Below are positions 4,738-28,355 of a stretch of DNA of 64,000 nt, one piece after another. The DNA is from Lineus longissimus. Its lineage: Eukaryota; Nemertea; Pilidiophora; Heteronemertea; Lineidae. Under the pieces are notes generated by a model. It had not been told where the DNA came from. It ran no database searches and saw nothing but the letters and a program-made list of their open reading frames with translations. The stretch covers positions 15,440,599 to 15,504,598 of the forward strand of contig NC_088309.1 of assembly GCF_910592395.1 (NCBI RefSeq), in the 5' to 3' direction. The position numbers were made by a program, and so were the translations under genes. The first letter of the stretch is position 1, and each line of letters opens with the position of its first letter.

Positions 4738-5438
4738 AGCTCACCTGGGTGAGCTTATGTCATCACGTCTTGTCCGTCGTCTGTCCGTCCGTCCGTCCGG
4801 CCGGCGTCCGTCAACAATGGTGGCACGTTTGCTCACCATTGCGTCTAGAAGGTTGAAACTTGGTGTGTGGATGTCTCATGACAACATGACCTGACATACC
4901 GAAAATCATTCCAATTCGACCTACTTTCTTGGCTACAGGCGGCCATCTTTGAAAACCTTATTTTGTCAATATCTCATGAATGCTGATAGCTAGGATCTTG
5001 AATTTTTTTCTGTGGGTACCTCTGAAGAGACTACATGACATAATACCCGGGTTTTTGATTTGACCTACTTTTCAAGGTGAGAGAGGTCAAACTCTATAAT
5101 TTCACCGCAGGTGGCACGTTTGCTAACCATAGAGTCTAGGAGGTTGAAACTTGGTGTGTGGATGCCTCATGACAGCATGACCTGACATACCGAAAATCAT
5201 TGCAATTTGACCTACTTTCTGGGATCCAGGCGGCCATCTTTGAAAACCTTATTTTGTCCATATCTCATGAATGCTGATAGCTAGGATCTTGAATTTTTTT
5301 CTGTGGATACCTCTGAAGAGACTACATGACATGATACCTGGGTTTTTGATTTGACCTACTTTTTAAGGTCACAGAGGTCAAACTCTATAATTTCACCCCT
5401 GGTGGCACGTTTCGTCATCATTTGTTGTAGACTCTTTA
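4738..5438 (+). repeat. GTGAGC dispersed repeat, left half of an interrupted copy
   Basis: Begins AGCTCACCTGGGTGAGC with runs of GTCCGTCC and holds two ~290-bp tandem units starting GGTGGCACGTTTG (4820 and 5110). Each unit ends with GTTTTTGATTTGACCTACTTTT and an AGGTCA-type half-site cluster. The third unit is broken at 5438 by the 22.9 kb insertion and resumes at 28356. The family recurs at least nine times in the window. Confidence 0.85.
5352..5380. promoter_or_regulatory. nuclear-receptor-type half-site cluster (ER8 + DR3)
   Basis: TGACCT (5352-5357), an 8-bp spacer, then AGGTCA-CAG-AGGTCA (5366-5380): a perfect DR3 with an everted half-site. The arrangement is inherited with the GTGAGC repeat. 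Binding is not shown. Confidence 0.5.
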
Positions 5439-5690
5439 GGGATCACGTCCAAAGTCCGCACGCGAATATTCGCTGGGCGAATCGGGGCGAAAATTCGCCG
5501 CCTGGTCGAATATCGCCACACTCATTCGCCTCCAAATCGCTGCCTGCTTCGGCGATTCTATTTTTCCATGCGAAAATTCAGACTGAATAAAAATCGCAGG
5601 CGATATTTTATTTCGCCTAAATCAATAAAATCGCGCCTGATTCGCTATCGCCGGCCATCGGAACAGAGCGAATATCATGCATGTCATGCG
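5439..5690. repeat. left subterminal zone of the 22.9 kb element
   Basis: Dense GCGAAT/ATTCGC/TTCGCC motifs in both orientations, matching the composition of 28050-28352. Such arrays at transposon ends commonly serve as transposase-binding zones; that role is inferred. Confidence 0.6.
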
Positions 5691-5847
5691 AATTTCGCCA
5701 TCAATTCGCCATCAATTCTTTCCCGCTCGTTCAACTAACGATTCTCGGCCGTATTTTGTATTGCTTGTTTTAAATATTGAAAAATCATTTTCAATTTATT
5801 TAAAATCAAACAAGACTTGCTTTGCTTCGTACTCTGTACATTCCTTT

Positions 5848-5955
5848 GTTTTATATATATTGAGGATATAATTAAGGACGTGCACTGAACTATCGGATGA
5901 TTTTATCCCCGGGAAATCGAAGACTACGAATCACCGGCCACTGCTTGATACGAAA
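5848..5955 (+). promoter_or_regulatory. candidate promoter of the BEN-domain gene
   Basis: A TATA-like stretch (TTTTATATATAT, near 5849-5860) lies about 100 bp before the candidate start codon at 5956, just inside the left end of the large element. That spacing suits a short 5' leader. Confidence 0.4.
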
Positions 5956-5983
5956 ATGGCGTCTGAGGATGAAAACAACGTTG
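5956..5983 (+). CDS. BEN-domain gene, candidate first coding exon
   Basis: ATG in good context (CGAAAATGG) gives a short acidic start, MASEDENNV, then a consensus donor GTGAGT at 5984. It ends one base into a codon, which fits the acceptor of the next recognisable exon at 9840 (giving E-A-G-K). The intron between them is 3.9 kb and contains a complete Harbinger transposon. Confidence 0.55.
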
Positions 5984-6716
5984 GTGAGTCATTTTTGTTA
6001 GGTTTTGAAGAACTTCAAAGTCTTTTTTGCAAGAATTTTAGACTTGATCGGATTATCAGATAATGCGGTATTTTGTTGATCATGCTGTCATTGGCTGCAT
6101 CATAAACAAACATGCAATGTATTATGTAAGCTGTTGATAGACGAGCTGTGACTTTGTCTGGCAGTTCATCACTCAGTGATTCACTGCAGTGCATGCATGC
6201 ATGCATGCTTGTGTATGCACATAGGCCAACACTCAACACCTAGGCCTAGACATCAATTATGACTTTCACATAAATTGTCGTCTGCTCAAGACAATTCAAA
6301 GATCATTGCTGCGCACTGGGTATATTTTGAATGTGACCACCGTGAACACTCGTAGGCCATGGTCACACACAGTCATTGCCGGCAATAGGCTAGGCCTAGA
6401 CCCTTTTTATACACCAGGGCCCATATTCATAAAAATTCCTAAGATAAGTCACCTAAACTCTATGTGTCATACTTTAATAGTCATGATACTTATGTTGGAA
6501 TTCATAAACCGTCCTTAGTGTCATACATTGTTAAGTATGATACCTATATTTAGGCATCATGCTTAAACGTTTTTCCGAGACATTCCCAGGGTTGGTGATC
6601 GCATTTCATAGATTATGTTGCTCATTTTTGTGGTTTGGGAAGGTATTGGGGCGGTCTAAATTGCATGGGAAGGCCTCGGATGGTATGCACATTCTTCATA
6701 GTCCTATCTATTCAGC

Positions 6717-7767
6717 ATGGACAAGGCTAAGCGCAAGCCAAATTTTTCGGAAGGTGAAAAATATCGACTTTGCGAGGAATATGAGAATGTATTTAATGTA
6801 GTGACGGGAAAGTTCAGTGCCAATATTTCAAATAAGAAGAAACATGATGCGTGGCAGAATATCACCTCCGCCATGAATAGGCGAAATCCGTCGGTTACGA
6901 GGTCCGATGCTGACTATCTCAAGAAATGGCAGAATTTGTGTTCAAATGCAAAGGATGAATACAGGAAATATCGTAAAGAGCTAGCTAAAACAGGTGAGAG
7001 CAAAATAACTTTCAAGTTTAACATTTAATACAACAAAAAATAATTTTAACAACAGTTTTTTTATCATGCTGTATTCAATTATTTGCATTTATCCTTTAGG
7101 AGGAGGACCGGCACCAGTTGAACCGTCACTGATTTCGCAGAAAGTGTTGGCAATTTTGGGTGAAGATGACCCAACACTCACAGGGATAGAAGGTGGCATT
7201 GAAAACACGCCGGCTGTTGTCTCAAATACTCCCACTACAAGTACATCTACGGCAAGTGGAAGTAGTAGTTCAAGGCAAGTACATGTACTGCAATCAGTCC
7301 AAATACTGGCTGCAATCAATCCTGATTCAAAGAAATAGTCAATTTACATTTACGTGTACATTTACCTGTACGGTAATCGCAACCATTGTTTATTTTACAG
7401 TACGGATTCCATTCGTGAACAGCAATCGCAAGCATGCAGTCAACTTCTTACAACGAGAAGGAGTCTTACACCGTCTGCAATTCCGGATCCTTGTCCCCCT
7501 TTGCCAGACGTGGAATCAGCTACGAAGAAACAAAAAGCCAGTGTCAATGAAGAAGCTACAGCCCGAGCAGCCAGCCACGCAGAGCTTTTGGATCTCGAGA
7601 AGACGAGGTCCACATTAGAAATCGAAAAGCTTAAATTGGAGAAAACTAAACTTGTTTTAGAAATTGAAGTGTTGCAACTTAAGAAGAGAAAGCTTGAACG
7701 AGATGAAGTTGGCAATTATGATATGAGCAATAACCGACCATACGATTACTCTCTAACCAATCTTTGA
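6717..7767 (+). CDS. Harbinger Myb/SANT-like partner protein (3 exons)
   Basis: Exons 6717-6993, 7100-7274 and 7401-7767 join in frame to about 272 residues. The first exon is a Myb/SANT-like DNA-binding domain (KPNFSEGEKYRLCEEY..., W near residue 42, KKWQNLCSNAKDEYRKY near 73-88), as in the MSANTD/NAIF1 group. Then follows a Ser/Thr-rich linker and a C-terminal Leu/Lys/Glu coiled coil. The second intron has a GC donor in its best context (AG|GCAAGT) with acceptor TTTTACAG. In Harbinger elements this partner binds DNA and helps bring the transposase to the nucleus. It converges with the transposase gene at 7833. Confidence 0.82.
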
Positions 7768-7832
7768 TGTGTAACTTTTGTGAAAATAAAAACAAAATGT
7801 ATATCTTGACTAAACTAAACTCACCTTGATCA

Positions 7833-8879
7833 TTAGAAGTGGACATTTACCAATTGATTTCTTCTCCCAACCCCGTATGCTCTGTCAGGTAAGGGAACTA
7901 CGTTTTCTGGATCAACATCGGGTTGCGGTCGCAGTTCGATTGGTTGTTCGTCAAAATCGGGCAGCCCTCTGTTGATGGCAATATTGTGTAGAAGTGCACA
8001 CACGCCAATTATCTCACATGATTTTCTCGGGTTGTATCTCAATTTGCCGTGGAGACAGTGGAATCTTCTTTTCCATTGTCCAATGCCTCTTTCCACCAAA
8101 CATCTTGTTCTCTTATGAGCTCTGTTGTAGGCACGTTGTTGGGCAGTGTTAGGATTGAGGAAAGGTGTCATGAGCCATGGTCTCAGTGGGTACCCACTAT
8201 CTCCCAAAAGCAATTCGTCTGCTGCTCGTTCCTCAAAAACTCGTGGAAGTGCACTTTCCCTAAGAATCACAGAGTCGTGGGTACTTCCTGGCCATTTTGC
8301 TACCACGTTGATGAATCGACATCTAGCATCCATCACGACTTGGGTATTTATTGAGTAATAGTTCTTCCGGTTGACGTAGCGCCACTCGTGCTGGCTAGGG
8401 CCTTGAATCCAAATGTGTGTGCCGTCGACCAAACCAACAACACAGGGAAAGTTCGCAATTTCATGAAACTCGGCGACAATGTTCGGAATATTTGCAATAC
8501 TTGGAAATTCCACGGCTCTTGGCAACAGAGGAAGCAGTGCATGGGTCACTTGGGAAATCACTCTACACATTGTTGGTTGTGATACGTGCACTGTATCACC
8601 TGTGACCATTTGAAATGACCCGGAAGCATAAAATCGAAGGGCAGCAAGTAGTTTTAGTGAACTTGGTAGAGCATGATTCCTCAACGTCTGTGGCTCAAGT
8701 TCATCACCTACCACATCAATCAGTTCCAAAATGGTTTGCCTATCGAAACGATATCGTTGATAAAGTTGCACATCGTTATAGATGTCCAACGGATGGACAC
8801 GGTCCCGAAATACCCTCTCTCGCCGCATAGCACGTTGTCCTTCCAGTTCTTCTAGCGCAGCGATCATAAACACAGCCAT
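7833..8879 (-). CDS. Harbinger transposase (HARBI1-like nuclease)
   Basis: A single intact 348-residue frame, the usual HARBI1 length. The DDE nuclease core is visible: first Asp in VVGLVDGTHIWI, second in LLGDSGYPL, and Glu in CLVERGIGQWKRRF. HDSVILR and the C-terminal IIGVCALLHNIAI are also typical. The enzyme would cut and rejoin the element ends. It is transcribed towards the Myb/SANT gene, with 65 bp between the stop codons. No frameshift or missing catalytic residue is seen. Confidence 0.95.
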   Translation of the reverse strand: MAVFMIAALEELEGQRAMRRERVFRDRVHPLDIYNDVQLYQRYRFDRQTILELIDVVGDELEPQTLRNHALPSSLKLLAALRFYASGSFQMVTGDTVHVSQPTMCRVISQVTHALLPLLPRAVEFPSIANIPNIVAEFHEIANFPCVVGLVDGTHIWIQGPSQHEWRYVNRKNYYSINTQVVMDARCRFINVVAKWPGSTHDSVILRESALPRVFEERAADELLLGDSGYPLRPWLMTPFLNPNTAQQRAYNRAHKRTRCLVERGIGQWKRRFHCLHGKLRYNPRKSCEIIGVCALLHNIAINRGLPDFDEQPIELRPQPDVDPENVVPLPDRAYGVGRRNQLVNVHF

Positions 8880-9097
8880 TCTCCACCAATGTAGAGTCTA
8901 AATTGATTTTTTTATAGCGAACACCCAACCTACTCAAAGTTAAGACAGGTCTGGAGGTGTCTTAAATATAAGTAGGAATTTGAGTATCATACTTTGGATA
9001 AGTAGGATATTGAATTCCACTTAAGTATGATACTTGAGTTAAGTAGGTAGATAGGTGTCAAACTTTGACTTAAGTACGTTTATGAATATGGGCCCAG

Positions 9098-9839
9098 GCG
9101 CCCCGGCAGAGGAAGTCATTGCGGGCTCAAACAAACCTAAATATAGGCACAAAGAACCAAAGGTCATTTGTTGTTCGGTCATGCAGTCTTGTTTGCTGCT
9201 TGTTTGTTGTTGCCTTCAGTTCGAATCAGTGACTTCTTCTTCTAAACTACTCGACAGTGTCTTCCTCCGCCTGGTTTGTTGGCCCCTTATTACTTCTGAC
9301 ATGTTCTGATCGTCACATTTCACTTGTTTTGGCTCTGATTACTCTTCGTCGAAAAGGCCTATTTGATAAATTGATATCATTAGTATTGCTCGTTCGTCAT
9401 CATTGCTGAATTGGTTTGAACTGTTGTACCGACCTGTATGATACACAAAGAAGGAATTGCAGTTGAAAATTGAATCACATGAAAGTTGCTCGGCATCAAG
9501 ATCAGCCTCTGGCTTTCCTGCTTCGAAGCAGGCATGCACTGATGGCAGTGATGCAATAGTATGTTCACAGAATTTATAATTGATATTTTGTACCAAGGCC
9601 CCTTGATAAGTGGTTTACACTGCCTCCCAATAATCTGAATATTTTATTTATCTTAACAATTCTTCATGTTCTGTACGTGCCTTCCATCCAATTCTTGGCA
9701 ATTTTCATCCAACCATTGGAATTGGCTTGTTTAGGAACCAGGATTTTGATGGTAGAAAACACCATGGCCCATGACATTAAATAATTACATGGTATTTAAC
9801 GATGTTTCCACTTTTTATGATTTTATTGTTCTATTGCAG
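9098..9839. other. rest of BEN-gene intron 1
   Basis: Sequence between the Harbinger and the next exon. I see no coding signal or recognisable repeat; the acceptor TTCTATTGCAG ends it. Confidence 0.5.
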
Positions 9840-9954
9840 AGGCTGGTAAATTTGTCTGGGCTAAATTGCCCAAGACCAAGGCAATTTGGCCCTGCAGGCT
9901 AGAATCCGTTTGTGATGGGAGAGTTGTTGTCTTTAATCATTCTGACCTGGCAGT
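9840..9954 (+). CDS. BEN-domain gene, PWWP-like exon
   Basis: Acceptor TATTGCAG and donor GTAAGT frame a 115-nt exon. It reads E-AGKFVWAKLPKTKAIWPCRLES...RVVVFNHSDLAV. The FVWAK...WPCRL pattern resembles the first strands of a PWWP-like (Tudor-fold) domain, which in other proteins binds methylated histone tails or DNA. It ends two bases into a codon. The next exon is not certain: 10988 onward continues the frame (GSKQLIQWLRGF) but lacks a good donor before a stop. Confidence 0.6.
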
Positions 9955-9960
9955 GTAAGT

Positions 9961-11116: not shown

Positions 11117-11184
11117 CATTGTTAAAGAAAAAACCTGCAAGTTTGCAGTCTTTTCTTTCTGATGTGAATTGGGCCTACGAAGAG
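11117..11184 (+). CDS. BEN-domain gene, exon LLKKKPASLQ
   Basis: Acceptor TTCTTTTCAG, donor GTGAGT. Encodes LLKKKPASLQSFLSDVNWAY followed by EE, ending on a codon boundary. No family match from memory. It fits in phase to the next exon at 11339. Confidence 0.5.
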
Positions 11185-11338
11185 GTGAGTAGGCAATATT
11201 TGACAAACATGAATTGCAGTTGGCACATTTCACATGAACTTTTCTTTAACATATTTTTTTTCCCTAAAATTTACTGCTGTACGTTAGGCTCCCTGCATTC
11301 CCTTCCTTTCCCTCGCCTCCATTTCGCGACAATACTAG

Positions 11339-13157: not shown

Positions 13158-13262
13158 TATTACTTGTTGGCTCACCTTAGGGGAGTCTATACAACACCGC
13201 ATTGTCCGTCATCCGTCGTTGTCATCCGTACATGGGTCTTGGCGTCCGTCATCGTCCGTATT
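13158..13262 (+). repeat. GTGAGC repeat fragment
   Basis: TTGGCTCACCTTAGGGGAGTC followed by repeated GTCATCCGTC/GTCCGT motifs, as at the 5' end of other family members. Confidence 0.6.
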
Positions 13263-13305
13263 GATCTTGCTTTCAGAGTTCAACTATTTATCAAATCTCT
13301 TTCAG

Positions 13306-13374
13306 ATCTACCTCAAATTGCCCTACTGTACCCTTGATTGCACCTGAACTGGAAATCCCCATGAACACCTTTGA
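13306..13374 (+). CDS. BEN-domain gene, duplicated exon 1 of 5
   Basis: Reads STSNCPT.PLIAPELEIPMN followed by TFE, flanked by TCTTTCAG and GTGAGT. It starts and ends in phase 2, so any number of these exons could be included or skipped without a frameshift. Confidence 0.5.
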
Positions 13375-13627
13375 GTGAGTATTGCAGTGGAGCAAGGCAG
13401 CAAAGAAGGTCTGATTTTTCAACAGTGTTATGCACTGAGCCGTTGATATCTTGGATTTGCTTCATTAGGAGGTTTAGTTACTGACACAGGTTTGGACAGG
13501 GGCTAATGTACATCATCCATGGAAATCAAGACCATAACATAGTATTATTTATAGAAATGAGGAATACCAAGCAATAGATGTATTGATCTTGCTTTCAGAG
13601 TTCAACTGTTTATCAAATCTCTTTCAG

Positions 13628-13696
13628 ATCTACCTCAAATTGCCCTACTGTACCTTTGATTGCACCTGAACTGGAAATCCCCATGAACACCTTTGA
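13628..13696 (+). CDS. BEN-domain gene, duplicated exon 2 of 5
   Basis: Same 69-nt exon as at 13306 (STSNCPTVPLIAPELEIPMN then TFE), with identical splice sites and phase. Confidence 0.5.
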
Positions 13697-13866
13697 GTGA
13701 GTATTGCAGTCGAGCAAGGCAGCAAAGAAGGTCTGATTTTTCAACAGTGTTATGCACTGAGCCGTTGATATCTTGGATTTGCTTCATTAGGAGGTTTAGT
13801 TGCTGACACAGGTTTGGACAGGGGCTAATGTACATCATCCATGGAAATCAAGACCATAACATAGTA

Positions 13867-14950
13867 CATTACGAGAAAAGCATAAACTCAACCCCGCGCA
13901 TGCGCAGACGTGACCCGATCTGACCTAATTGGCAGACCAGCCGGTCAATAGAAAATACATTGAGCACGTAGGTATTGCCATCTCACGGCTTCCAGGGGAA
14001 CTGGGGGCAAGTTGCCGATAGCAGACATGAAGGATATAATATATATCTATCCCCTGGCCAAATTTCAAGTAATTTGAAGAAAATTTTAAGTTGAACACAT
14101 CGACGGTGAAATTTGCCCGATTTTCCAAGCCTAAATGCATTAGAATTGCTTTGAAAAATGGCAAAATTAGAGAATGTAGTGACTTTGAAGGCTTGTAACT
14201 TCGCGCGCGTTGCATGGATTTTAGTTGCCGATAGCAAGTGCAGATGGCGATACCGTATAGAGCACCTCCATCAAGTTTGAGCGTATTTGAAGAAACTTCA
14301 CCGTTGAACATTGGGGTCCTCAAAATCGACTATTTTCAGAATGTTGTAATTTCGTCAGAGTCCAAATCAAGAAAAACCCATTGATTCTTCTTCCTTAAAA
14401 TGCAACAGGAGCACACTTTACATTACCTTGAGGATGTTTCGGTTGTGTATGGGTGTGGTGTGGACCTGGCCTGATTACTCCAATGTGTTGTCCTGTTAGC
14501 AGGGTGTGGGCCGGGTGTGGCCTGGCCGGGGGGGGGGGGGGGGGGGGGGGCGGGGTCGTTATTCCTTGGAAGACCATTTTCAGAATGTTGTAATTTCGTG
14601 AAGATGATTCGGTGGTGCATGGATGTGGTGTGACCCTGGCCTGATTACTCCAATGTGTGGTCCTGTTAGCAGGGTGTGGGGTGTGGCCTGGCCGGGGGGG
14701 GGGGGGGGGGTCGTTACTCCTTGGAGGTCAATTTTCGAGCAAAAACCCACTGAATCTTCTTCACAAATGCAACAGGAGCACACTTTACATTACTTGACAA
14801 TAATCGGGATTAACGCCGCGAGTGCGTGGCAATTCCAAACTTGTTGTTGCGGGATCCATGGTAGCGATTGCGGGCCTCTGATTGGCTGGCGATGTGAACG
14901 GTGCTGCCACCTTACGGATAGCGGACTTGCTCCATTTCTCCTAATGATTA
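13867..14950. mobile_element. 1.1 kb insertion inside the exon-repeat array
   Basis: Interrupts the junction that reads ATAGTATTATTTATAG in undisturbed units. The ends CATTACGAGAAAA and TTTCTCCTAATG are imperfect inverted repeats. The interior holds two copies of a ~190-bp segment (14400-14580, 14585-14790) with GCAACAGGAGCACACTTTAC, and G runs of 23 (14528-14550) and 17 (14694-14710). No protein is recognised. Confidence 0.6.
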
Positions 14951-15030
14951 TTTATAGAAATGAGGAATACCAAGCAATAGATGTATTGATCTTGCTTTCA
15001 GAGTTCAACTGTTTATCAAATCTCTTTCAG

Positions 15031-15099
15031 ATCTACCTCAAATTGCCCTACTGTACCTTTGATTGCACCTGAACTGGAAATCCCCATGAACACCTTTGA
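15031..15099 (+). CDS. BEN-domain gene, duplicated exon 3 of 5
   Basis: Same 69-nt exon and splice sites as the first two copies; first copy to the right of the insertion. Confidence 0.5.
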
Positions 15100-15352
15100 G
15101 TGAGTATTGCAGTGGAGCAAGGCAGCAAAGAAGGTCTGATTTTTCAACAGTGTCATGCACTGAGCCGTTGATATCTTGGATTTGCTTCATTAGGAGGTTT
15201 AGTTGCTGACACAGGTTTGGACAGGGGCTAATGTACATCATCCATGGAAATCAAGACCATAACATAGTATTATTTATAGAAATGAGGAATACCAAGCAAT
15301 AGATGTATTGATCTTGCTTTCAGAGTTCAACTGTTTATCAAATCTCTTTCAG

Positions 15353-15421
15353 ATCTACCTCAAATTGCCCTACTGTACCTTTGATTGCACCTGAACTGGA
15401 AATCCCCATGAACACCTTTGA
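15353..15421 (+). CDS. BEN-domain gene, duplicated exon 4 of 5
   Basis: Same 69-nt exon, identical protein sequence to copy 3. Confidence 0.5.
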
Positions 15422-15674
15422 GTGAGTATTGCAGTGGAGCAAGGCAGCAAAGAAGGTCTGATTTTTCAACAGTGTCATGCACTGAGCCGTTGATATCTTG
15501 GATTTGCTTCATTAGGAGGTTTAGTTGCTGACACAGGTTTGGACAGGGGCTAATGTACATCATCCATGGAAATCAAGACCATAACATAGTATTATTTATA
15601 GAAATGAGGAATACCAAGCAATAGATGTATTGATCTTGCTTTCAGAGTTCAACTATTTATCAAATCTCTTTCAG

Positions 15675-15725
15675 ATCTACCTCAACAAATTTAAATTGCC
15701 CGACTGCAACATCTGTAGATAATGG
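15675..15725 (+). CDS. BEN-domain gene, duplicated exon 5 (diverged)
   Basis: Reads STSTNLNCPTATSVDNG in 51 nt; keeps the NCPT core and the phase but differs from the other four after it. Possibly the ancestral or terminal version. Joins in frame to 16051. Confidence 0.5.
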
Positions 15726-16050
15726 GTGAGTATTGCAGAATTACCAGACAAAACACTGCAGAAATAGTGGAACTACTTTCTACCATCGCTATATACACTG
15801 AATCGATTTGAACCAGAAGGTACAAAACTGCACTGTCTGCCGTCAATGTCAGATATTAAACCTCGGATGCCAAAATTCCACTTGATCTGTTTCTCAACTA
15901 GGCCACCAGGGGGCAAAACCTCTAACTGTAAAGCAATATACATGTGCATGTTTCTTAACCACGATGAATTCCTATTAACCACCAATTATCTATATGGCGA
16001 GCACAATGGTCACTGGCCTCTCATATTAAATTGTTTTGGGTTTTTTTCAG

Positions 16051-16095
16051 AAATGTTGTGATTGGCGGTGGCATTTTCTCGATTCCCCTTTCAAA
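16051..16095 (+). CDS. BEN-domain gene, start of the BEN-like domain
   Basis: Acceptor TTTTTTTCAG, donor GTAAGT. Encodes NVVIGGGIFSIPLSK, resembling the opening strand of BEN domains (a V.LG.GV..PKS pattern). It ends in phase 2, as the final exon at 20922 requires. About a dozen residues usually present between these blocks are missing, so another exon may be unseen. Confidence 0.5.
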
Positions 16096-16532
16096 GTAAG
16101 TTTATAAATAATGATAGATATTTTCAGATGATTATTTCATTGCGACGCATAGTGTCAGCATAAAGAGTAATCCCTGTGTGTGATGGATCACTTTATTAGA
16201 AACTCCAACTGTGTTTGTTCATAGCAAAACCCTCGGGGGGGGGCCCAGAGGTGACAAGTGATTTATCATATATATTGATATATTGCTATATCCCGGTGAT
16301 ATATATCTTATAATTATTTGTACAAGTCATTTATCGTCAGTTGTCAATTTGTCATGAGTCACTGTATTCTGTCTGGTGTCACTGAGCATTGCACATGGTA
16401 TCAACCTGCACCTTTGTATCATTAAAAACACAGTCAAAAGTATCTCAAAAAAAATATGACTGGCAGCTGTGATTGCAATTGAGTGTCATCTGTAGTCGTA
16501 GTCATCATCAGTCTTGATACTTACTTACTTAC
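16096..16532. other. BEN-gene intron before the antisense transposase
   Basis: Intron sequence with a (TTAC)n run at 16519-16542, immediately after the transposase stop on the other strand. No other feature seen. Confidence 0.5.
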
Positions 16533-17672
16533 TTACTTACTTTTGTTTCTTTTCGCTTTCATCTCTTCTCTCCTTTGAATGGGGTGCATAAATTTCATAT
16601 GCCTTTCCCAGTCTGTGTTGGACAAGAAGACATACCTGCAACCGTAGCCACAAGAGCCCAGTGTGTTACTTGGGCAAAAGTTATCAAGCTTGTCATACAC
16701 TGTCATTGTCTTCATGTCCAGATATGTCTGGTAATGTCCAGGAAAAGCTGGGTCAGGTGCAGGTGAAAAACTCATGCAGCCTTGCTTGTGGATCTGCTGC
16801 ATGAAAGTGGTCGCCTGAATGACATTTGCTGTGCAGTGACTGCAGTCATGGCTGAAACATTTCATGTACTCAATGCCATGGCACCTCCGAGTGCAATGAT
16901 TCAGAATAAAACGGAACTCGTCCGCATATTCGGAATCCTGTCTGAGTGATTGAAAAGATGACCTGATGTTCTCGAAGTCGTTGTAGGGAAATGGGAGAGA
17001 TCCTCCCATAACCCCAGTCATGTCTGTCATGAAGTCGTCGTACTTGCCACCTTTCCAATATGACAAGCATTCTGTGATTGCGTGGTCAAAATTTTGCACC
17101 TCACTCATGCCTTCTGTCCTACGTCTGAGTGTCACACCAACAAGATCTCTAGAGAGAGGTGCCCAGGCATGCTCTATTGGATTCTCCTTGGAGTTTCCCG
17201 GGGCATGTTGTGTGATCCCAAAATAATCTAGATTCAAGTCCTTCCACAGCCGACCATAAATAAAGATATTATGCATGCTTTTGAAGCACCAGTCTGGCCC
17301 TCCGTCAGAGATTACTCCAACAACTGGTTTTATATTACGAGACATGATGGTATACAGATCATTGGCATGATTTATGGCTGTGGAAGGATGAAATCGAACT
17401 GCCCGCAAATATAAGTGAAGATTACCAGTAACAGGGCAAAACAAATGGTCTCGGCCATTTTCATCCTTGACTGATGATGGGATTGAACTATCTTTTGAAC
17501 TCAACATTAGATAGCCTGAAGGATTGAGCTTGCTGTTGGGTTCAGGGAAGTCATGGTCATGGTAATTTGGACGATCTGAAGTGGGAAATATTTTCCTAAT
17601 TTGAATGTAGCGGGACACAGCCAGAGTCCCCACATTTACTTTGTTTTTGTCGTCACTAGATAGAATACTTGA
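16533..17672 (-). CDS. DDE-type transposase-like protein, C-terminal exon
   Basis: A 380-codon open stretch. The acceptor CCCTTGAG ends at 17673; coding starts SSILSSDDKNKVNVG. Candidate catalytic residues are Asp in SSDDKNK, Asp in VVGVISDGGPDW and Glu in NPIEHAWAPLSR, matching the RNase-H-fold order of IS630-like enzymes. The C-terminus has a zinc-finger-like C-x3-C-x12-H-x4-H (CGYGC...HMKFMH) and a basic tail. No ATG begins the frame and the N-terminal part lies in the exon at 20420. I recognise related uncharacterised animal proteins but not a named superfamily. It lies antisense in a BEN-gene intron. Confidence 0.7.
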   Translation of the reverse strand, partial: SSILSSDDKNKVNVGTLAVSRYIQIRKIFPTSDRPNYHDHDFPEPNSKLNPSGYLMLSSKDSSIPSSVKDENGRDHLFCPVTGNLHLYLRAVRFHPSTAINHANDLYTIMSRNIKPVVGVISDGGPDWCFKSMHNIFIYGRLWKDLNLDYFGITQHAPGNSKENPIEHAWAPLSRDLVGVTLRRRTEGMSEVQNFDHAITECLSYWKGGKYDDFMTDMTGVMGGSLPFPYNDFENIRSSFQSLRQDSEYADEFRFILNHCTRRCHGIEYMKCFSHDCSHCTANVIQATTFMQQIHKQGCMSFSPAPDPAFPGHYQTYLDMKTMTVYDKLDNFCPSNTLGSCGYGCRYVFLSNTDWERHMKFMHPIQRREEMKAKRNKSK

Positions 17673-18068
17673 CTCAAGGGCCCAACGCGCCGCGTAGTGG
17701 CAAAAAAGCGAAGCTGGCGAAACATTTATAACGGGTCACCGTCACTTATTATTGGACTTATAGCGCATTTACGGGGTTGCAACTATTTTGCTTTATAGTG
17801 TCACCAGGAAAGAAAAGCATGCGACCTAACGCCGATCTATTTGTATAAAGTGATAATTGGAAGGTATATAGTAGGAAATATCAATAAAATAATCATTCCA
17901 TGTCGTCTTTTGAGGGCATTTTTGATTGTAAAAAATATATGTGTACGTCACCGTAGTCTCTGCAATGATAATTTTATCAGAGCAGTCTCGCGCAAGTAGA
18001 AGTTCTTTACCTACTAGTTCTTCACTTATTAGTCTCAACGTCTGGCGCAAAGCCAGACGTTTTCCATT

Positions 18069-18207
18069 ACGATTTCACTACGATGTTTGACAATAAGGAG
18101 CAGTGCGCAAGATATGCTAATGAGCAGACTTCCCTCGCTTGAGTTTCTGAAGAATGTTCCATATCGCGCTAAGCTCATCACTGCTGATTATGACAGGCGT
18201 GCAGCGG
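18069..18207 (+). repeat. 140-bp direct repeat, first copy
   Basis: CGATTTCACTACGATGTTTG through GACAGGCGTGCA, about 90% identical to 19617-19750. The shared frame reads HDFTTMFD.KEQCAR with in-frame stops, so it may be a decayed coding piece. Origin unknown. Confidence 0.55.
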
Positions 18208-19616
18208 TAGGTATCTGCTGCCCAACTTCCACCCTAATACGGTACAATAAGTTACCATTTGATGAGAATGGGACAATGCCCTCACTGTGTATGGAGTCAT
18301 AGGGATAAGAAGACATTATTCATTAGTGTTGGTACAAGTGATTTTGCCCAAAAAGCATGCGCATTCAAAAAACAAAATATGCAAGGTATCACGTACATGA
18401 CCATGACGACGTGCAGAAAGTACACTGGCCAGTGCATACCCTATGGCTATGTATAGTAAACATGGTAAACATGAACAACATCATTATTCATCGGCAGTTC
18501 ATTTTACTCCGAGCTTTTCCTGAAACATATTGCCATGATGATTAGGCCTACCAACCATGTACCATGACCAATAACGGCACTAGATCATGTAGATGTCAAC
18601 AAGTTCACATGAACCGTATAATCCCGCATGGCGCATGTGGGGCATGCGTCTAAACCAAAGCCCCAAAATCACTTGTTTTGGTCTATTTCACTTGTGTTTC
18701 CCCGTCTCCCAGTCCATAATACATTTACAGTTTACAATCCCCGATCATGGCCCAACAAAAGGTCATCGGTTGACTAAAGCCAAGGAACACAACTGTTCAA
18801 TGGATTTATAGTTGAATGCGATCAAACTCCGTCTTTTCAATCGTGGATTGTAAATATAACCCCATGGGCCTAGGGAAGGCCCTATAACAATACTTTCGAC
18901 ACAGTTATTATCTCCGCTGCCTCCACCATGTTACACACAGTGCTCACTGCTGATTCTAAAATGCGCCACCTAGTCAATTGCACTATCGTCATCACCTCAT
19001 CATACTTCATTGACATTACAGGCACACATTGACATAGACCACTGTTGCAATCAACGACACAGTCGCTATCCAAGTAGCATTATAGAGGTAATTATCATTA
19101 TCATACCTAATTAGCATGTGAACCAATCGCGTCGCGTCCTTTGCGATCACGGCAAAGCCTCATGGAATTATGTCTTTCAACGTTGAATAATTTTTCATAT
19201 TCCATGCCTACAACTTCAATTTCTTCATAATCCATGGCTAGAAGTTCAATACTAATATAATATCCAAGATAAAGTTACAAGAAGTAGTCAATAGGGGTCT
19301 CTCACCTCTCGATGTATGTCCACACTATTCACGCTTGTACGAGGAATACATTCAATGCTGAATCTAACAACACCCAGTGCCCTTACTCTGTATATTAGTC
19401 ACTGGAAGATGGCCCATTTCACTCCTTGCTTCTACTTCACCTATAGTCTCATTGCAAACGCCTCAGTTCTATGATATCACATTCACTTTCAGCTGTCATG
19501 CAACGCAACAACTGTGCTATCTGCCATCGCACATCAACGAAGAAGTGCAGCCGCCCACATTCCACCTCACGTCTGTCCGACCGGCTGCAATCCTCGAGGA
19601 CGCCCCACTGTACCAC

Positions 19617-19750
19617 GATTTCACTACGATGTTTGACAAGAAGGAGCAGTGCGCGAGATAGGCTAATGAGCAGACTTCCCTCGCTTAAGTTTCAGAAGAA
19701 TGTTCCATATCGCGCTAAGCTGACCACTGCTGACCATGACAGGCGTGCAT
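19617..19750 (+). repeat. 140-bp direct repeat, second copy
   Basis: Counterpart of 18069-18207; upstream of it the frame is open from 19377 but the protein is not recognised. Confidence 0.55.
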
Positions 19751-20288
19751 TGGACTGGTACAGGTTGGAACTGAACATTGAATATGCTGGTGGTGACGCT
19801 TTCTGATGAGAAGTTGGTCGTGACTGATGCAGTATCCTTGGACTTGTCCACAGCATCGTTCAATCATTGCTCTCTGAGCTGCCTTGATTCTGCCTTGATT
19901 CTGTACCCAAATACTAAGACCAAATGCCTGTTGACTGTGCTTTAAGAGAGACTGGCCCCATGCCTAGAGATATGACTGACCCCTATTGGCAAATTTGTAT
20001 GACTTTATCTTGCCTACCTAGCTGCTGCCTATAGTCTCCCTTTAACTGCGGAACACTTCAAAGTCGATAAAATGCCATGTTCCACCTTTTAATGTGTTCA
20101 GACTGCCATTTTCAAAATAATCAAGTCAGGACACTGCCTTCTAGTCTCATAATAAATTTTGCTTTCCTCAATATATAATAACATTTCTTCTTCTTCAATG
20201 CTTTCATCATTCCAAACTTCTCCTCCTCTGACTTTTACAGGGGTACAGTCATGGCAATCAAAACCCAAATACTGAGACCAAATGCCTG

Positions 20289-20345
20289 TTGACTGTGCTT
20301 TAAGAGAGACTGGCGCCATGCCTAGTCTCTCTTAAAGCACAGTCA
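20289..20345. repeat. 23-bp stem hairpin
   Basis: TTGACTGTGCTTTAAGAGAG.. (20289-20311) is the perfect reverse complement of 20323-20345, with an 11-base loop. The left arm is also part of a direct repeat with 19930-19955. Confidence 0.75.
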
Positions 20346-20419
20346 ACAGACACCAACCCCCTCAGACTCAGAAACCACAAACGCCCAACCCTTCCTGCTA
20401 CCATAATACTTCTGGATAC

Positions 20420-20817
20420 ATTAGAATGATCAGAGAACATTTCCCTAAATAAAAGAACCTGGCTTCTACAGAAATGTATATCTTGATGTTCTTTCACAAG
20501 GTCATTCTGCTTGGCAGGTACTCGAGCATGTATACTAGACGTGTACCTGCCAGCAGAGATGGAGGTGGATCTCGGAGGCTCGAGTAGCCTTGCTACTGTA
20601 CTCTGGCTTATGCTTTTTAATTCAGGTACGCTCCTCATTAGGTCCTTCCTTATATTATTTATGGTCACACCGCAACTTGCAGTGTCTGTTCTGCGGCGTT
20701 TGTGGGCTGAAAACCCATTATGGGTTATAAATGTTTCTGCTGCACCCAGTATGCCTGGGTACTGTTTCAGCTTGGACGGCCTACCCATTTTAGTGTTGAA
20801 AGGATCAGCAGGTTTGC
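20420..20817 (-). CDS. DDE-type transposase-like protein, N-terminal exon
   Basis: Acceptor TTATTTTTCAG precedes 20817; donor GTATCC follows 20420. It encodes a helical region: GRPSKLKQYPGILGAAETFI, GVTINNIRKDLMRSVPELKS, ARVPAKQNDLVKEHQDIHFC, ending REMFSDHSN in phase 0. This joins directly to SSILSSDDKNK with the spacing expected of the family. Basic and helix-turn-helix-like, so probably the DNA-binding part. The initiating exon upstream was not found. Confidence 0.65.
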
Positions 20818-20921
20818 CTGAAAAATAAGTTTTTTTGATGCTGTAATTGTATCTTTTTGTCTTTTTAGGTACAATACCATAGTGAATAAGAAAGGCTACA
20901 ATGGCCATCTGCTGTGTGTAG

Positions 20922-21138
20922 TGGTCTCCTGAGGGCGTTGGTACCGAAGGAGGTACTGAAGTATTCGAGCGTTTCGGGCTCCAGCCGTAAAGTGGCTGGG
21001 CATGTCCAGAATTTTAAACCGATACTTAGGACAGTTGTCGATTCAATTCGTACACATGTAAGGGCAATATTTCCTGCCAGCACAGAGGACGATATCTCAA
21101 ATGAGGTATTTAACAAAGTGTGTCGTCGTTATCGATAA
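20922..21138 (+). CDS. BEN-domain gene, terminal exon
   Basis: Acceptor CTGTGTGTAG, then GLLRALVPKEVLKYSSVSGSS, a linker, and LRTVVDSIRTHVRAIFP with a basic end VCRRYR before TAA. The pattern LL..L...E.L..SSVSG...L...V..I...V...FP is that of the C-terminal two-thirds of BEN domains, sequence-specific DNA-binding modules often found in chromatin repressors. Confidence is moderate because I worked from pattern only. Confidence 0.6.
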
Positions 21139-22180
21139 ATTCAGATTAACTAACATTCAACTACCTTTCTTTTGGTTCCGCAAAGGCGCTTCCTTTATAT
21201 CCAGTGGCTTTGACTTCGGTAAATCTAAACCGGCATCCTTTTCTGTAACTACAAAATATACATGTAATAATAAGAGTTCGGAATGTTAGATAATCTGTGC
21301 TCAATACAGTACTGGAAAGAAGTTTCGGGCCAGGTCTTTGCATAAATTTCCTTCATATCGCACCAGTACTGGCAAATGCAGAACAAGGTCAGCAATAGTT
21401 CTCACTTCACACAGCCACTTGTGCTTCAGGGTCACATGCATCCATGTGAGGTGAGAACTGTAGCTGATATTGTCCTGCATTTGCCAGCACTGGTGAGACA
21501 TGAAGGAATTCAATTCAAATGCCCAGCTCAGAAACATCTTTCCAGGACTGTATATTCTGTACTGGCAGGTGGTTTTACATATGGGCTGGTAATTTGTTCA
21601 TAGTGCCATCATCGGCACCAAATATCTATACAGTGAGCACAATGGCCCTTGGCCTTTTCATTCTATTTTCCTTTAAGCATAAGTTGACTGTTATTGGTTT
21701 CTGGAGCGTGTATCCATAAATGTTATTGTTAGGTTGCTGATCTTCACCAAACTCGTTTCCTGTGATAAAAATAGTGTGTAAATTGAATTATTAATAATTA
21801 TGAAAATCGGATCTGTTGCTAACATGGTTTATGCACTCTAGACTCTGAAAAATGTACAAGTATATTATATAAACTGGTTTTCAAATTTTGTAAAAATGGT
21901 TAATCGCATTGAAAAACTTGTCTCGAGATTTGAAAATAGCCACACCCAGAAGTTATATGGAAAAATGATTGAATTTATTCAACAATTTGGCAAGGTGTAT
22001 TAAAAATCATCAGCACTTTTTTAACAGTTTATGTTCTTACCTGAAGAGTCAGAGTCTGTATCTGAAAACATCCATAAGCCATGTAAGCCATCCGTCTCGC
22101 TTTCACTATCGGAATATGGCTCCGTTGTCTGGAAGGAAATGGAAATGATAAAACTGTGGAGATTATAGAAAAGTCGTCTG
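21139..22180. other. 3' flank of the BEN gene with an inverted repeat
   Basis: Contains the 60-bp-arm inverted repeat at 21353-21506 and a GTGAGC-repeat tail at 21630-21660. The rest is AT-rich without a recognisable gene. Confidence 0.5.
21353..21506. repeat. imperfect inverted repeat, ~60-bp arms
   Basis: 21353-21413 (CATATCGCACCAGTACTGGC...) pairs with 21446-21506 (...GCCAGCACTGGTGAGACATG) with a few mismatches and a ~32-base loop. A miniature transposon remnant or a hairpin RNA source. Confidence 0.6.
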
Positions 22181-22800: not shown

Positions 22801-23195
22801 TCCGTCCATAATGAAATCGACATAGCATATAATGAGTTAATGTTTCAATGTCGCAAGTTTTATTACTTGTATTCAGTGTATATCCGTCCATAATGAAATC
22901 AGTATTGCTGATTGGTCAATGTTTCAATATCGCAAGTTTTATTACTTGTGTTCAGTGTATATCCATCCATAATGAAATCAGTATTGCTGATTGGTCAATG
23001 TTGTATTGTCGCAAGTTTTATTACTTGTATTCAGTGTATATCCATCCATAATGAAATCAGTATTGCTGATTGGTCAATGTTTCAATATCGCAAGTTTTAT
23101 TACTTGTATTCAGTGTATATCCGTCCATAATGAAATCGGTATTGCTGATTGGTCAAAGTTCAATTGTCGAAAGTTTTATTCAATGTATTCAGCGT
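22796..23195 (+). repeat. 79-bp tandem repeat, five copies
   Basis: Units begin GTATATCCGTCCATAATGAA (22796, 22877, 22956, 23035, 23115), the first and last diverged. Four units carry GATTGGTCAA, an inverted CCAAT motif. The open frames across it are by-products of the 79-bp period. Confidence 0.9.
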
Positions 23196-24530
23196 AGGTT
23201 TCTATTAAAGTGAAGTCAGGCGGCAGGTTTACTGACATAGATCAGACTGATCTTGGATTTCTTCCTTCAAATTTGTATGTATTACCTTTAATACATTATA
23301 ATGGTATATCATAGCTTTGAATTAGAAATGTTGTTTTTGGCGTTGATTGTGTTTTACCACTTAATGCATTTAGTCAAATAACACTTTTTAGATGCGAGAT
23401 TTGGCTTCTAAAACAAATATAACTGGTTTTTTAGAAAAATTTTAAAGTAAGATTACAATAAACTAATTATCATGGGCAAAAGTGTACTTTCATATATTTT
23501 CGCTCTAACAACAAACTTGAGTTTCTGTGTTGTAATTTTTCCATGTGGTAATGTCCACATGGGCAATATCTGCATGTCCTTGGGGAGAGACATGACCAGC
23601 GTGGAGGGGAATTGGTGGTTGTGCTGTGCACGGAGGCTATAATGGGTGCTAGTTTAGTTTGGATTAGGTCGTCCCAGTGGTTTTTTGGTCTTTGAAAGCA
23701 GTGTATGATGGGTGTCTCAAAACAAGTAGAGAGTAGTTTTTTGTCCTATTAATGCACCTATTGTCTTCAATTTATTGCTGGTGCAAAAACTCAGAATTGT
23801 TAAAACAAACTTCTGCTGCATAAACCCTGTGGAAAGCCACGATCAAACTGGTAGAATTGAAAATTGTAAATGCAAAAATGTTGCAAGAAAGGTTTCATTA
23901 GCACCGGGCTATAAAGTGTGGATTGAAGCTCCTCACAGCCAGCAAGGCCCCTTACAAATTGTACGGCGACAGGTATTCGGTCTTTCGCTTACTGATTTAT
24001 CACCTATAGTCGTTTTGCTCCCAGGCTTGGCGTATGTGGCTTGGACGTTTCAATCGATCAGATTTTTCTTCACAGTTCCTTGCAGTAATCATGAATGAAA
24101 TCAGGGTATCAAGTAATACTTGTCTATCTGGTGGATATCAAATCTTGACAAATTCTAATTGGCTTTTAATTACATGTAATTGTCTAATTATAGATGAGTC
24201 ATTTACAATACAGCTTGATATTGGGGAAGTATAACTTGTCGGTAAAATGACTGGTCCATATCAACGATTGTTCCTCTACTAGAGTGATGCCCTGGGCAAT
24301 TCAACAGTGTGTGATTATTGATGGGTGATCAAGAGTGTGATCTTGGGAAAGTCAATTGTCTAACTCATTCATTGGTCATATCTGGTGTCTGACTTTCAGC
24401 AAGTCACTTGTCAAAGATCGCAATGCATCATCATGTCTCAAAAGTAGGACGAAAGGAAGTAAAAAATAAATGTAAATCAATAACTCTAATGCAAAAATTT
24501 ACATTTTTAAGTATTCTTGGAGAGTAAAAG
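23196..24530. other. no recognised gene
   Basis: An open frame at 23775-24098 shows no family and no convincing splice sites. No other repeat recognised. Confidence 0.4.
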
Positions 24531-24743
24531 CTCTGTACACACTGACAACATTTTGGGAAACATGTTGGCCAACATGTTGTCCAGGTGCGATGTTATCGAA
24601 AATGTAGACAGTGTGTACAGTTCGGAAACATTCGATAACATGTTGGCCAAAAGTTGCTCAAATGTTGTCGAAATAATAAAAAAATCAATTTTGTTGCGGA
24701 GTGTTGTCAAGTTTTATCCAATCAGAAACAGGCCACAAATCAC

Positions 24744-24881
24744 ATGATCTACCTGAAGCCATGTGATGTAGTCAAAATAGCAGCCTCCAGCAAGGAATGG
24801 TTATTGAGTGAAGTGGAACAACTTATCGCAGTATGGGAAAGTTGTGCCTGTTTATGGGACGACAGTAGACAGGAGACAGTG
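24744..24881 (+). CDS. MADF/Myb-SANT-like first exon, copy 1
   Basis: ATG to donor GTAGGC gives 46 codons. KEWLLSEVEQLIAVWESCAC followed by LWDD resembles the first helices of MADF or Myb/SANT-like DNA-binding domains. CCAATCAG lies 27 bp before the ATG. No following exon was identified, so it may be a duplicated gene start without a body. Confidence 0.4.
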
Positions 24882-25318
24882 GTAGGCCCCATGCTGGTCT
24901 CTCATATATATCCATGGTCTTGTCCACACACTTTTCTCATCTTTACGTATTCTTTGCCATCTTTCAATCAGGATACGTAAAATTATGGCAGAGCCCCCGA
25001 CAATACATCTTCTTCTCTTGGAATCTTCCATTGTTTATGAATGTCTGTGCAAAATCCTCATTTTCTCAGAAACATTTGATAACAAGTTGCTCAACATGTT
25101 GTCGGGCTCAGTACACACTGACAACATTTTGGGAAACATGTTGGCCAACATGTTGTCCAGGTGCGATGTTATCGAAAATGTTGGCAGTGTGTACAGTTCG
25201 GAAACATTCGGTAACATGTTGGCCAAATGTTGCTCAAATGTTGTCGAAATAATACAAAATCAATTTTGTTGCAGAGTGTTGTCGAGTTTTATCCAATCAG
25301 AAAAAGGCCACAAATCAC

Positions 25319-25456
25319 ATGATCTACCTGAAGCCATGTGATGTAGTCAAAATAGCAGCCTCCAGCAAGGAATGGTTATTGAGTGAAGTGGAACAACTTA
25401 TCGCAGTATGGGAAAGTTGTGCCTGTTTATGGGACGACAGTAGACAGGAGACAGTG
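25319..25456 (+). CDS. MADF/Myb-SANT-like first exon, copy 2
   Basis: Same protein sequence as copy 1 with the same donor, produced by the 576-bp duplication. Preserved reading suggests recent duplication or constraint. Confidence 0.4.
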
Positions 25457-26283
25457 GTAGGCCCCATGCTGGTCTCTCATATATATTCATGGTCTTGTCC
25501 ACACACTTTTCTCATCTTTACGTATTCTTTGCCATCTTTCAATCAGGATACGTAAAATTATGGCAGAGCCCCCGACAATACATCTTCTCTTGTAATCTTC
25601 CATTGTTTATGAATTTCCGTCCAAAATCCTAATTTTCTCAGAAACATTCGATAACAAGTTGCCCAACCTGTTGCCGAATGTTGTCATGTGTATACAGGGC
25701 CAAATTATTGTTGCCCAGATGTGTTGCCGAGACGTTTCCAAAAATGTAGAAGTGGGGATATAATATCGCGCAACGTTGAGTTGGCCCCAGAGAAATTATC
25801 ATTGATGATGTGTGAATGTTATCATCATCATCATCATACCATCTTAGTGCATAGAATGATCTTCTTCTTCTTCAATTACTCGGTTGGCCGTCTGTCGACG
25901 TATAATAACCGAGGTGGAGGTGTGGGCATGCGGGGAAGGAAGGTTTGTTAGTAGCATGCCTTGGGGAGGCATGCCCTGAACGCTGTGGGTGAAATAGCCC
26001 TGCGAGCGTCTGCGCTTAAACTATTCCAATCGGAAGTTGTACGGATGATGAAAGATTTCCTGTACGCATCGGTGTTGCATCTAGTTTAAATTAGTCTGTT
26101 CCTTCTTCCAGGGTTGATCAGATTGGGGTCAAGTTGAACTTCAACTTTCTTATTTATTATTAGGTAAAAAAGGATGAGGCGTTGGTTTTTCCGTCGTGAT
26201 GTTAAGGGTTCCCAGTTGAGATTTCTCAAGAGTTCCGTGACGCTAGTTTTGGGCTCGTTGTGATTATGTAACACGATCATATA

Positions 26284-26790
26284 TGCAATACTACAATCAA
26301 GATGTACAGACCGGGGGAGCTGGCTGTACGTACCCATAAGTCTTTGCGGTAGTCTCGCGCGTACCGGATATAACCCATCAAGCTTTTCTCCTTCAGAGAA
26401 ATACTGCGTTGCGCTCAAGTGCCTTATAAGGCTGTGAACAAAATTAACGTTCGACCAATGAGAAAGCCACATTACCCTGCATACGAGGTTGGACGCGTGA
26501 TCACTAAATGACAAGTAAAAATAGAATCAGACCACATGTTTCTATATGTCAGAATGCTGCCGTTTGTTGTAGTACACGTGTGTTGTCCAAATTTTCGATT
26601 TCAAGCAAGTTTAAGGCCAACCTCGTGTCCACCAGACTAATGCATAATTGGCAGTTGAGCGCAACGCAGTATTTCTCTGAAGGAGAAAAGCTTGATAGGT
26701 TATATCCGGTACGCGCGAGACTACCGCAAAGACTTATGGGTACGTACAGCCAGCTCCCCCGGTCTGTACATCTTGATTGTCGTATTGAAT
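26284..26790. mobile_element. foldback element with ~137-bp arms
   Basis: 26284-26421 and 26654-26790 are nearly identical inverted arms (GATGTACAGACCGGGGGAGC... and its complement) around a ~230-bp loop. The inner arm sequence (AGTATTTCTCTGAAGGAGAA...) has a diverged relative at 55705-55790, so it is a dispersed family. Frames inside are not protein-like. Confidence 0.8.
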
Positions 26791-28050
26791 AGGATTGATA
26801 TAGGCCTAGACAATGCCAAATGGCAATGGAAATGGAAAAGCTAAATTTTTATCTAGAAAAGCTAGGATATAATTAAAATTATTCCAAAATAAAGGTAGAT
26901 AAACAAGGGATTCAAAAGATATACATGTATATACAACATAGGAAAGTGATCAGAAACCAGCGGTATCGAGCGGAGAAAATAATCTCTTCTTGTCTCGTGT
27001 AATCTGGATCAGCCATAAATCATGCATTCAGCATTGCAGCATTGCATCAGTTTTCTTAGCTGACCAAAACAACATTGAACATTCGTGCATTTGTTCCTCA
27101 TTGGTGACAAATGTTGTTGAGTTTTCTGACGGGCCCAACCTAGGCCTAGGTTGAAAAAAATTTGAAGACTATCGATATAAACGCCTATTTCTTTTGGTCT
27201 GCCAAATGTTTAGATATGAACAGGAAATGATCGATAGCATATTCATTCAGAAAAACTGAAGTGAAAAATGGTAAACATGCATTGGAAGGGTCATCCTATT
27301 TGCGTCCAGTGGCGACCAGAAAACGATAGTATGCGTCCAGCAAAAGTACAGGACGCCATGTTTGTTTTAGCTGCCGTTCCTTGGGTTTATAGAAAAAGCG
27401 GAATCGCATCAGGTTGGCACATGGAGATGATGGATGATTATTCAAAAACTAGGTTTGCAAACTCCACCAAACTTCTAAATCTTGTTTATTGAAAGTGTTT
27501 TAGGAGCTTGAAAACATTTTTAACCATATACACCCTTTTATTTTCTCGTTGGACGCCATTGGTCGCCACTGGACACAATTTAGGATGACCGCATTGGAAA
27601 CAGGAAACTGAATTGTCACGTGACTAACTTTTTTCGGAAATAAGAAATTATGGAATGTAGGAAAAGGTATTCAACTGCCATAGCGAATAGATTGAAGTGG
27701 TATAAATATTTCACAGACAAAACATATTTTTATTTTTTTGTGAAAATCTGATAAATGAAGTCGGCGGAGATTTGGTGCTGTTGATAGAGTGTGTGTACTT
27801 TTTAAAACAGCGTGTCAGTGTCGTGTGTGCCGTCGTGTAGGTTTGAAAGGCAGTTTGGCGCTATATCGCCTAGGGGACGGATAGGCCTAGGCCTACAGTA
27901 CACCCTCGATTTAGCCAAATTATACTGAGTGGCAAACTGTGCGAGATGGTTTGACAATTGATGATTATTATAGAAATATCAGCTAATAAATGTTTACGCT
28001 TTTTATACTCACCATTTTGGCCGATCTTTTGTCCCCGAAATAAAACAACG
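26791..28050. other. right interior of the 22.9 kb element
   Basis: AT-rich with several TAGGCCTAG palindromes (26800, 27141, 27882). No exon with convincing splice sites. Confidence 0.4.
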
Positions 28051-28352
28051 AATCCAAGAAATCGAAAATGCGTCCGATTTTCGCCGGGTATTTTAAAGAT
28101 GGCGAAAATCGTTTGCGAATATCGGACAAGAGCCAACAATTTCGTAAAATCGCTCCATTATCGCCTGGAGCGATTTATTGTGCGAAATCGAAGAACAGGC
28201 GCGATTGTGGGTAAATTTCGCATTGACATATCGGCGATTTTTTAAAATCGCCATCGTTTCGCCGGTCGATTTTCGGACTGATTTCGCAGGCGAAATACTG
28301 CAGTGTGAATTTCGCCGGCGAATATCGCGTGCAGACTTTTGGACGTGATCCC
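28050..28352. repeat. right subterminal zone of the 22.9 kb element
   Basis: Dense TTCGCC/GGCGAA/AAATCGCC motifs mirroring 5439-5690, ending in TTTGGACGTGATCCC and the TTA duplication. Confidence 0.65.
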
Positions 28353-28355
28353 TTA

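Follow-up and report, generated by a model that had tools for sequence, protein, structure and literature searches.

Closest described systems

PIF/Harbinger transposons follow a two-gene plan in which one gene encodes a DNA-binding partner; in these elements a Myb-like protein serves as DNA-binding helper of the transposase, and TWA is the usual target duplication. As far as the accessible part of one source goes, ISAzo13 is linked to the eukaryotic Zator elements, with 3-bp duplications in both (PMC10045372), and the accessible part of another counts Zator among the superfamilies of the IS630-Tc1-mariner group (PMC7386202). Here we analyze a 22.9 kb interval (5436-28355) in a 64,000-nucleotide stretch of Lineus longissimus contig NC_088309.1 (hereafter the window, which is the reference for all positions). 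This interval is probably a large DNA transposon of the cut-and-paste type, related to ISAzo13/Zator and no longer active, with two genes: a DDE transposase gene on the - strand and, on the + strand, a gene that probably encodes a BEN domain (Table 1).

Set against the described systems, the element is best read as a Zator/ISAzo13-type transposon in a new, two-gene form. With Zator the element shares a eukaryotic host, a 3-bp duplication and an apparently ISAzo13-related transposase, a likeness drawn through the accessible part of PMC10045372, but it differs in its intertwined antisense genes and in its BEN partner gene, none being mentioned in the portions of the Zator descriptions at hand. 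With ISAzo13 it shares the 3-bp duplication (PMC10045372, in part) and matches of its transposase relatives to NF033519 and PF07592 in the DDE region, but these scores fall mostly below the cut-offs, and the element is long, two-gene, located in an animal genome and predicted to have introns. The TTA/TAA duplication and the ends beginning with GGG resemble PIF/Harbinger, whereas the transposase lacks a DDE_Tnp_4 match. Tc1/mariner elements (Mos1, SETMAR) are unlike it in three respects, the present element having a 3-bp TTA/TAA instead of a TA duplication, D-43-E spacing and long extra segments.

The DDE transposase

The main exon of the transposase consists of two parts in the window, 16533-17672 and 20405-20817, which form one continuous frame in a copy at C10. 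The enzyme has a D2-43-E spacing and, more tentatively, a predicted DDE-type fold. The sequence-only reading had taken it for a non-Harbinger enzyme, which agrees with the absence of a DDE_Tnp_4 match for its two open reading frames (ORFs); in the same search, the ORF of a separate, nested Harbinger element matched DDE_Tnp_4 at 1.2e-39 (Myb/SANT in that element, 1.1e-14). A Harbinger identity for the large element was likewise considered and rejected, since the Harbinger genes sit in the nested element, which is bounded by separate ends and whose empty site is seen in C7.

Relatives of the transposase match the ISAzo13-family models PF07592 and NF033519 weakly but repeatedly. For NF033519, 7 of 10 proteins match at E<=1.3e-3, far below the 200-bit cut-off, and for PF07592 two of eight relatives (P0008, P0010) reach the 26.9-bit cut-off. 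The enzyme appears to be distantly related to the ISAzo13 enzymes of bacteria. An undescribed superfamily, as suggested earlier, is possible but not established, given these matches and the link of ISAzo13 to Zator in the available part of PMC10045372. Searched with PF07592, neither the same genome nor any of 14 control genomes yielded a match, a result that is not evidence of absence; a search of viral and genome contig collections with transposase alignment A1 returned no relatives, and a P0008 search among plasmids yielded nothing useful.

A relative at C15, 48-65% identical, has neither a BEN exon nor matching ends. It is adjoined on the opposite strand by a THAP-domain frame (E 1.8e-10; L031 3246-3602) and also neighbors a frame that by eye resembles a BEL/Pao retrotransposon. 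A second, very distant DGGPD-type lineage (26-27% identical; L036 532-2292, L035 1198-2157) is represented by two copies, at C4 and C11, with 98% identity to each other across a compared length of 2.3 kb.

The BEN-side gene and the gene arrangement

On the + strand, the frame at 20890-21135 in the last exon (exon b) gives a PF10523 match with E=0.005 and 17.5 bits that covers model positions 6-74 of 76; 20 frames were scanned in Pfam (19 on the + strand, one on the - strand), for which about 0.1 chance matches at this E are expected. A first Pfam scan of 10 frames found no BEN match, a protein search with exon b returned no match, and the likely second exon at 9840-9955 has no Pfam match. Codon evidence comes from comparing the window with C10 over 20923-21039, a stretch chosen once the frame was known: 12 of 16 substitutions lie at third codon positions, 12 are synonymous and 4 are not, and the proportions of synonymous and nonsynonymous differences (pS 0.40, pN 0.046) differ with Fisher p 1.1e-5. 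Outside this stretch, the two copies of exon b differ in length at two places, and neither keeps the whole frame. Exons a and b carry consensus-like splice sites in the window as well as in C10. Because a sub-cut-off Pfam match is joined by codon evidence, we regard a BEN domain in this gene as probable; of the antisense BEN-domain gene previously proposed, the coding frame is borne out, while the domain assignment stays below the curated threshold.

In 150-base windows compared with C10, exon b is 89-90% identical, its neighbors on both sides 96%, and the rest 93-100%; in other words, exon b diverges by about 10-11%, mostly at silent positions, and the neighboring windows by about 4%. The simplest idea would be that recombination or gene conversion brought in this tract from a lineage that had diverged further.

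The transposase main exon (16533-20817, -) lies wholly within the proposed last intron of the BEN-side gene (16096-20868, +), and exon b begins about 50 bases past the acceptor of the transposase main exon. By-eye splice reading suggests further upstream transposase exons at ~21164-21250 and ~22040-22130, with a first exon near 28010; if these are read correctly, an intron of each gene encloses an exon of the other. The genes therefore appear to be intertwined in antisense, with putative splicing on both strands. Transposase and BEN exons occur together in two loci, the window and C10:6411-6416k, and both reading frames are broken in the window copy.

Ends of the insertion and their copies

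The insertion in the 22.9 kb interval is real. The 12-mer GGGATCACGTCC is exact at 5439-5450 and its exact reverse complement lies at 28341-28352. With up to two mismatches, the whole window holds five matches against a chance expectation of 2.3; the exact form occurs only at the two element ends, and the other three have two mismatches. Local alignment of the two 50-base ends gives a score of 31 over 44 columns, compared with a maximum of 15 in dinucleotide shuffles (n=2000). A second control of 5000 window pairs reached a maximum of 31 and is uninformative, because every pair had exactly the separation of the element's ends, so that the true pair is probably included. TTCGC/GCGAA words number 13 in 302 bases on the left, 10 in 303 on the right and 12 in the 22,309 between; they may be binding sites for the transposase or a cofactor. 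The matched inverted ends with TTA on both sides and the subterminal zones rich in such words, which had been described from the letters alone, are thus upheld.

Joining the two flanks gives a sequence that aligns over the insertion junction with L014 (82% identity), which has a single TTA at the insertion position, and with L004 (72% identity), which has CTA there; these two, of 59 matches, are further copies of the flanking repeat. Judged by these alignments, both are paralogous empty sites. The sequence-only reading was right that the flanks rejoin to a repeat unit, although the unit it named, 5110-5165, is not among the spanning matches.

Copies of the ends were sought in the 391 Mb genome (30 contigs). 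The left probe (205 bases) gave 40 scored matches of 172 candidates and the right probe (251 bases) 40 of 100, both lower bounds. All 40 left-end places were inspected, with ends sought at <=2 mismatches in 15 bases. These best 40 of 172 include three large copies (window, C7, C10:6529k) and 31 places where the two ends lie no more than 3 kb apart and the flanks are distinct (C7:14720778 being read from L011); L051 has both ends and was excluded as a duplicate, its left flank being that of another copy, and L019, L039, L055, L057 and L058 have no recognizable end pair. The 31 short copies measure 0.77-2.0 kb, 27 of them 0.99-1.05 kb, and the 28 copies of 0.98-1.06 kb (these 27 plus L051) have a mean identity of 97.1%. 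Identical 3-bp flanks are found in 26 of the 31 (18 TTA/TTA, 8 TAA/TAA) and unequal triplets in five, which corroborates the boundaries and the 3-bp duplication first read in the window. One short copy, L006, shares with the large element only about 220-250 bases per end, and no interior match was found in the 31 except for the 22.4-22.7 kb dispersed repeat in the 2.0 kb copy. The short copies look like non-autonomous derivatives.

Large and partial copies

The start of the + strand gene is contained in a probe of 5700-6400, for which matches were obtained in the window, at C7, at C10:6528k and, in four pieces, at C4, besides a few short stretches elsewhere. The C4 pieces come after a left end (L066), so that three left ends besides the window's run into this gene start (C7, C10:6529k and C4). 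The first exon is whole in C7 (with three extra bases), has an 11-base gap in C10:6529k, and is mostly kept in C4.

In gapped form, the C7 copy parallels the window from 5439 up to a single 322-bp unit around 13.9 kb; the nested Harbinger and the bulk of the likely second exon are absent from it, and it has other interruptions as well. The 40 kb examined at C7 showed no transposase, nor did the 40 kb surrounding the left end at C10:6529k. That left end faces, 115 kb apart, the C10:6411-6416k locus, which carries the transposase beside BEN exons, matches 15326-17672 and 20405-22177 without 17673-20404, and has no end in the DNA examined there. On the other side, a right end at C17 matches, in order, 27829-28352, 26794-26898, 25744-25860 and 24119-24461; because these matches skip 26899-27828 and 25861-26793, the two segments were either gained later or lost from C17. 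Together, the partial copies cover much of the element. A stretch in L011 (about C7:14718700-14719900) that by eye resembles a tyrosine-recombinase gene interrupts the C7 copy.

Weighing the explanations

Several observations speak against a two-gene transposon of the ISAzo13/Zator kind. The window's own transposase ORF gives E=0.14, without a PF07592 match. On the BEN side, the PF10523 match falls below the curated cut-off (17.5 vs 23.2 bits), the spliced C10 peptide has no Pfam or PDB match, and the predicted fold of exon b is of low confidence (predicted local distance difference test, pLDDT, 56). These BEN-side points, together with the chance expectation for the frames scanned, would suit a BEN-like exon that is a chance match, in which case the + strand gene would be something else or a pseudogene and the element an ordinary one-gene Zator-like transposon. 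We consider this unlikely, since the third-position bias and the low pN relative to pS, albeit in a stretch chosen with the frame known, point to a coding sequence, the PF10523 match spans nearly the whole model, and exon a gives the same peptide with consensus splice sites in both copies.

Further points against the two-gene transposon are that gene DNA or a transposase match is present in 0 of the 31 short two-ended copies, that a second copy, complete and with the DDE gene, was not found among the matches examined in the same genome, and that two of the three left-end copies besides the window's retain the start of the + strand gene only in part. The earlier reading would have been undermined by ends that never accompany the genes; this is so for the short copies and not for the three left ends that reach the + strand gene start. 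The first two points, and TTA/TAA duplications that suit Harbinger TWA targets, would also be expected if the ends were those of a PIF/Harbinger element moved by a Harbinger enzyme encoded elsewhere, with the DDE and BEN genes as passengers in a non-autonomous copy. This appears still somewhat less likely: the sole recognized Harbinger transposase in the interval belongs to the nested element, which has different ends and a CAG duplication, the start of the + strand gene lies roughly 500 bases in from the left end, four left ends share the first part of this gene, and 3-bp duplications are also made by ISAzo13/Zator, according to the part of PMC10045372 available.

That the two ends belong to different insertions, with host DNA and mixed repeats in the 22.9 kb between them, would accord with multicopy ends, many nested repeats and no intact second copy, but is very improbable given TTA on both sides, a junction that can be rejoined to paralogous empty sites, and partial copies running from the left end to 13.9 kb (C7, with gaps), from 15.3 to 22.2 kb (C10) and from 24.1 kb to the right end (C17, with gaps).

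Proposed mechanism and implications

Taking the interval as a two-gene cut-and-paste transposon, we propose that one gene reads inward from each end, the transposase (-) from the right and the BEN-side gene (+) from the left. The window transposase would be the enzyme that moves these ends: binding to the end and to the GCGAA/TTCGC words of the subterminal zones would be followed by cleavage of the ends and their joining to a TTA target, with the 3-bp duplication as the result. The BEN protein, with a probable C-terminal BEN DNA-binding domain, might act as a cofactor for finding ends or target, by analogy to the Myb-like protein of Harbinger elements. More tentatively, the element may represent a lineage sister to Zator, derived from ISAzo13-like D-43-E enzymes, that needs both DDE and BEN proteins and has interlocked antisense genes, of which a simple internal deletion could not remove one without harming the other.

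BEN domains are present in chromatin factors and viral proteins, and a BEN domain paired with Zator or another DDE transposon was not met in the literature that could be searched. If the pairing is true, a BEN gene in a DNA transposon would be a possible source of host BEN factors, and BEN would be a second kind of DNA-binding partner besides the Myb-like one of Harbinger. The locus also offers a testable link from bacterial ISAzo13 enzymes to animal transposons with a 3-bp target duplication.

Nested insertions and other features

Because the interval holds several nested insertions, 22.9 kb is, on the sequence comparisons, not its native size but one swollen by later insertions; the large transposon originally proposed is thus retained as a cut-and-paste type, with its length inflated and both genes interrupted.

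Table 1. Positions of features in and at the borders of the interval.
Feature	Position	Strand	Basis
Left target-site duplication, TTA	5436..5438	.	Read in sequence
Left terminal inverted repeat (GGGATCACGTCC...)	5439..5481	+	Alignment with right end
Left subterminal zone, 13 TTCGC/GCGAA words	5439..5740	.	Word count
+ strand gene, putative first exon, ATG, then donor GTGAGT at 5984	5956..5983	+	By-eye splice reading
Nested PIF/Harbinger element, CAG duplication	6418..9094	.	Pfam; empty site in C7; edges by eye
Myb/SANT protein of nested Harbinger	from 6720	+	Pfam
Harbinger's own transposase inside nested element	7833-8897	-	Pfam
Likely second exon of + strand gene (GKFVWAKLPKTKAIWPCRLES...), mostly missing in C7	9840..9955	+	Inference
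322-bp tandem units	13258-13866, 14947-15685		Sequence comparison
BEN-side exon a (NVVIGGGIFSIPLS), donor GTAAGT	16051..16095	+	Same peptide in C10
DDE transposase, catalytic and C-terminal part, stop codon (DDKNK, SDGGPDW, NPIEHAW)	16533..17672	-	
Nested 2.7 kb insertion splitting transposase ORF	17673..20404	.	C10 copy without insert; edges +-~10 bases
DDE transposase, N-terminal part of main exon (GKPADPFNTKMGRPSK...), acceptor TTATTTTTCAG	20405..20817	-	
BEN-side last exon (exon b), BEN-like domain and stop	20869..21138	+	PF10523 match; codon evidence
Copies of dispersed flanking repeat	22.2-22.8 kb		
~575 bp repeat	24530-25104 and 25106-25676		
Right subterminal zone, 10 TTCGC/GCGAA words	28050..28352	.	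Word count
Right terminal inverted repeat	28311..28352	-	Alignment with left end
Right target-site duplication, TTA	28353..28355	.	Read in sequence

The C7 copy keeps the empty site of the nested Harbinger (6418-9094), which, with its flanks (6415-9097), is bordered by CAG and not by TWA. The insert at 17673-20404 is missing in C10, where the transposase frame is unbroken (...REMVSDHSDVSSILSSDDK...). An intron reading of this segment is unlikely, as C10 lacks it and the frame there is continuous, though the insert may perhaps be spliced in the window copy. No clear duplication was found at its junctions, the shared AATACTT being part of the insert's end; 19500-20417 has a 97% copy at C4 (L066), and a 70-base foldback lies at 20283-20352, near the end of the insert.

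A - strand frame at 25951-26526 resembles by eye the C-terminal end of a non-long-terminal-repeat (non-LTR) retrotransposon; its 26089-26526 part has no Pfam match. Each 322-bp unit holds, by eye, a possible exon between splice-like sites, and the tandem units may possibly reflect exon multiplication in the + strand gene.

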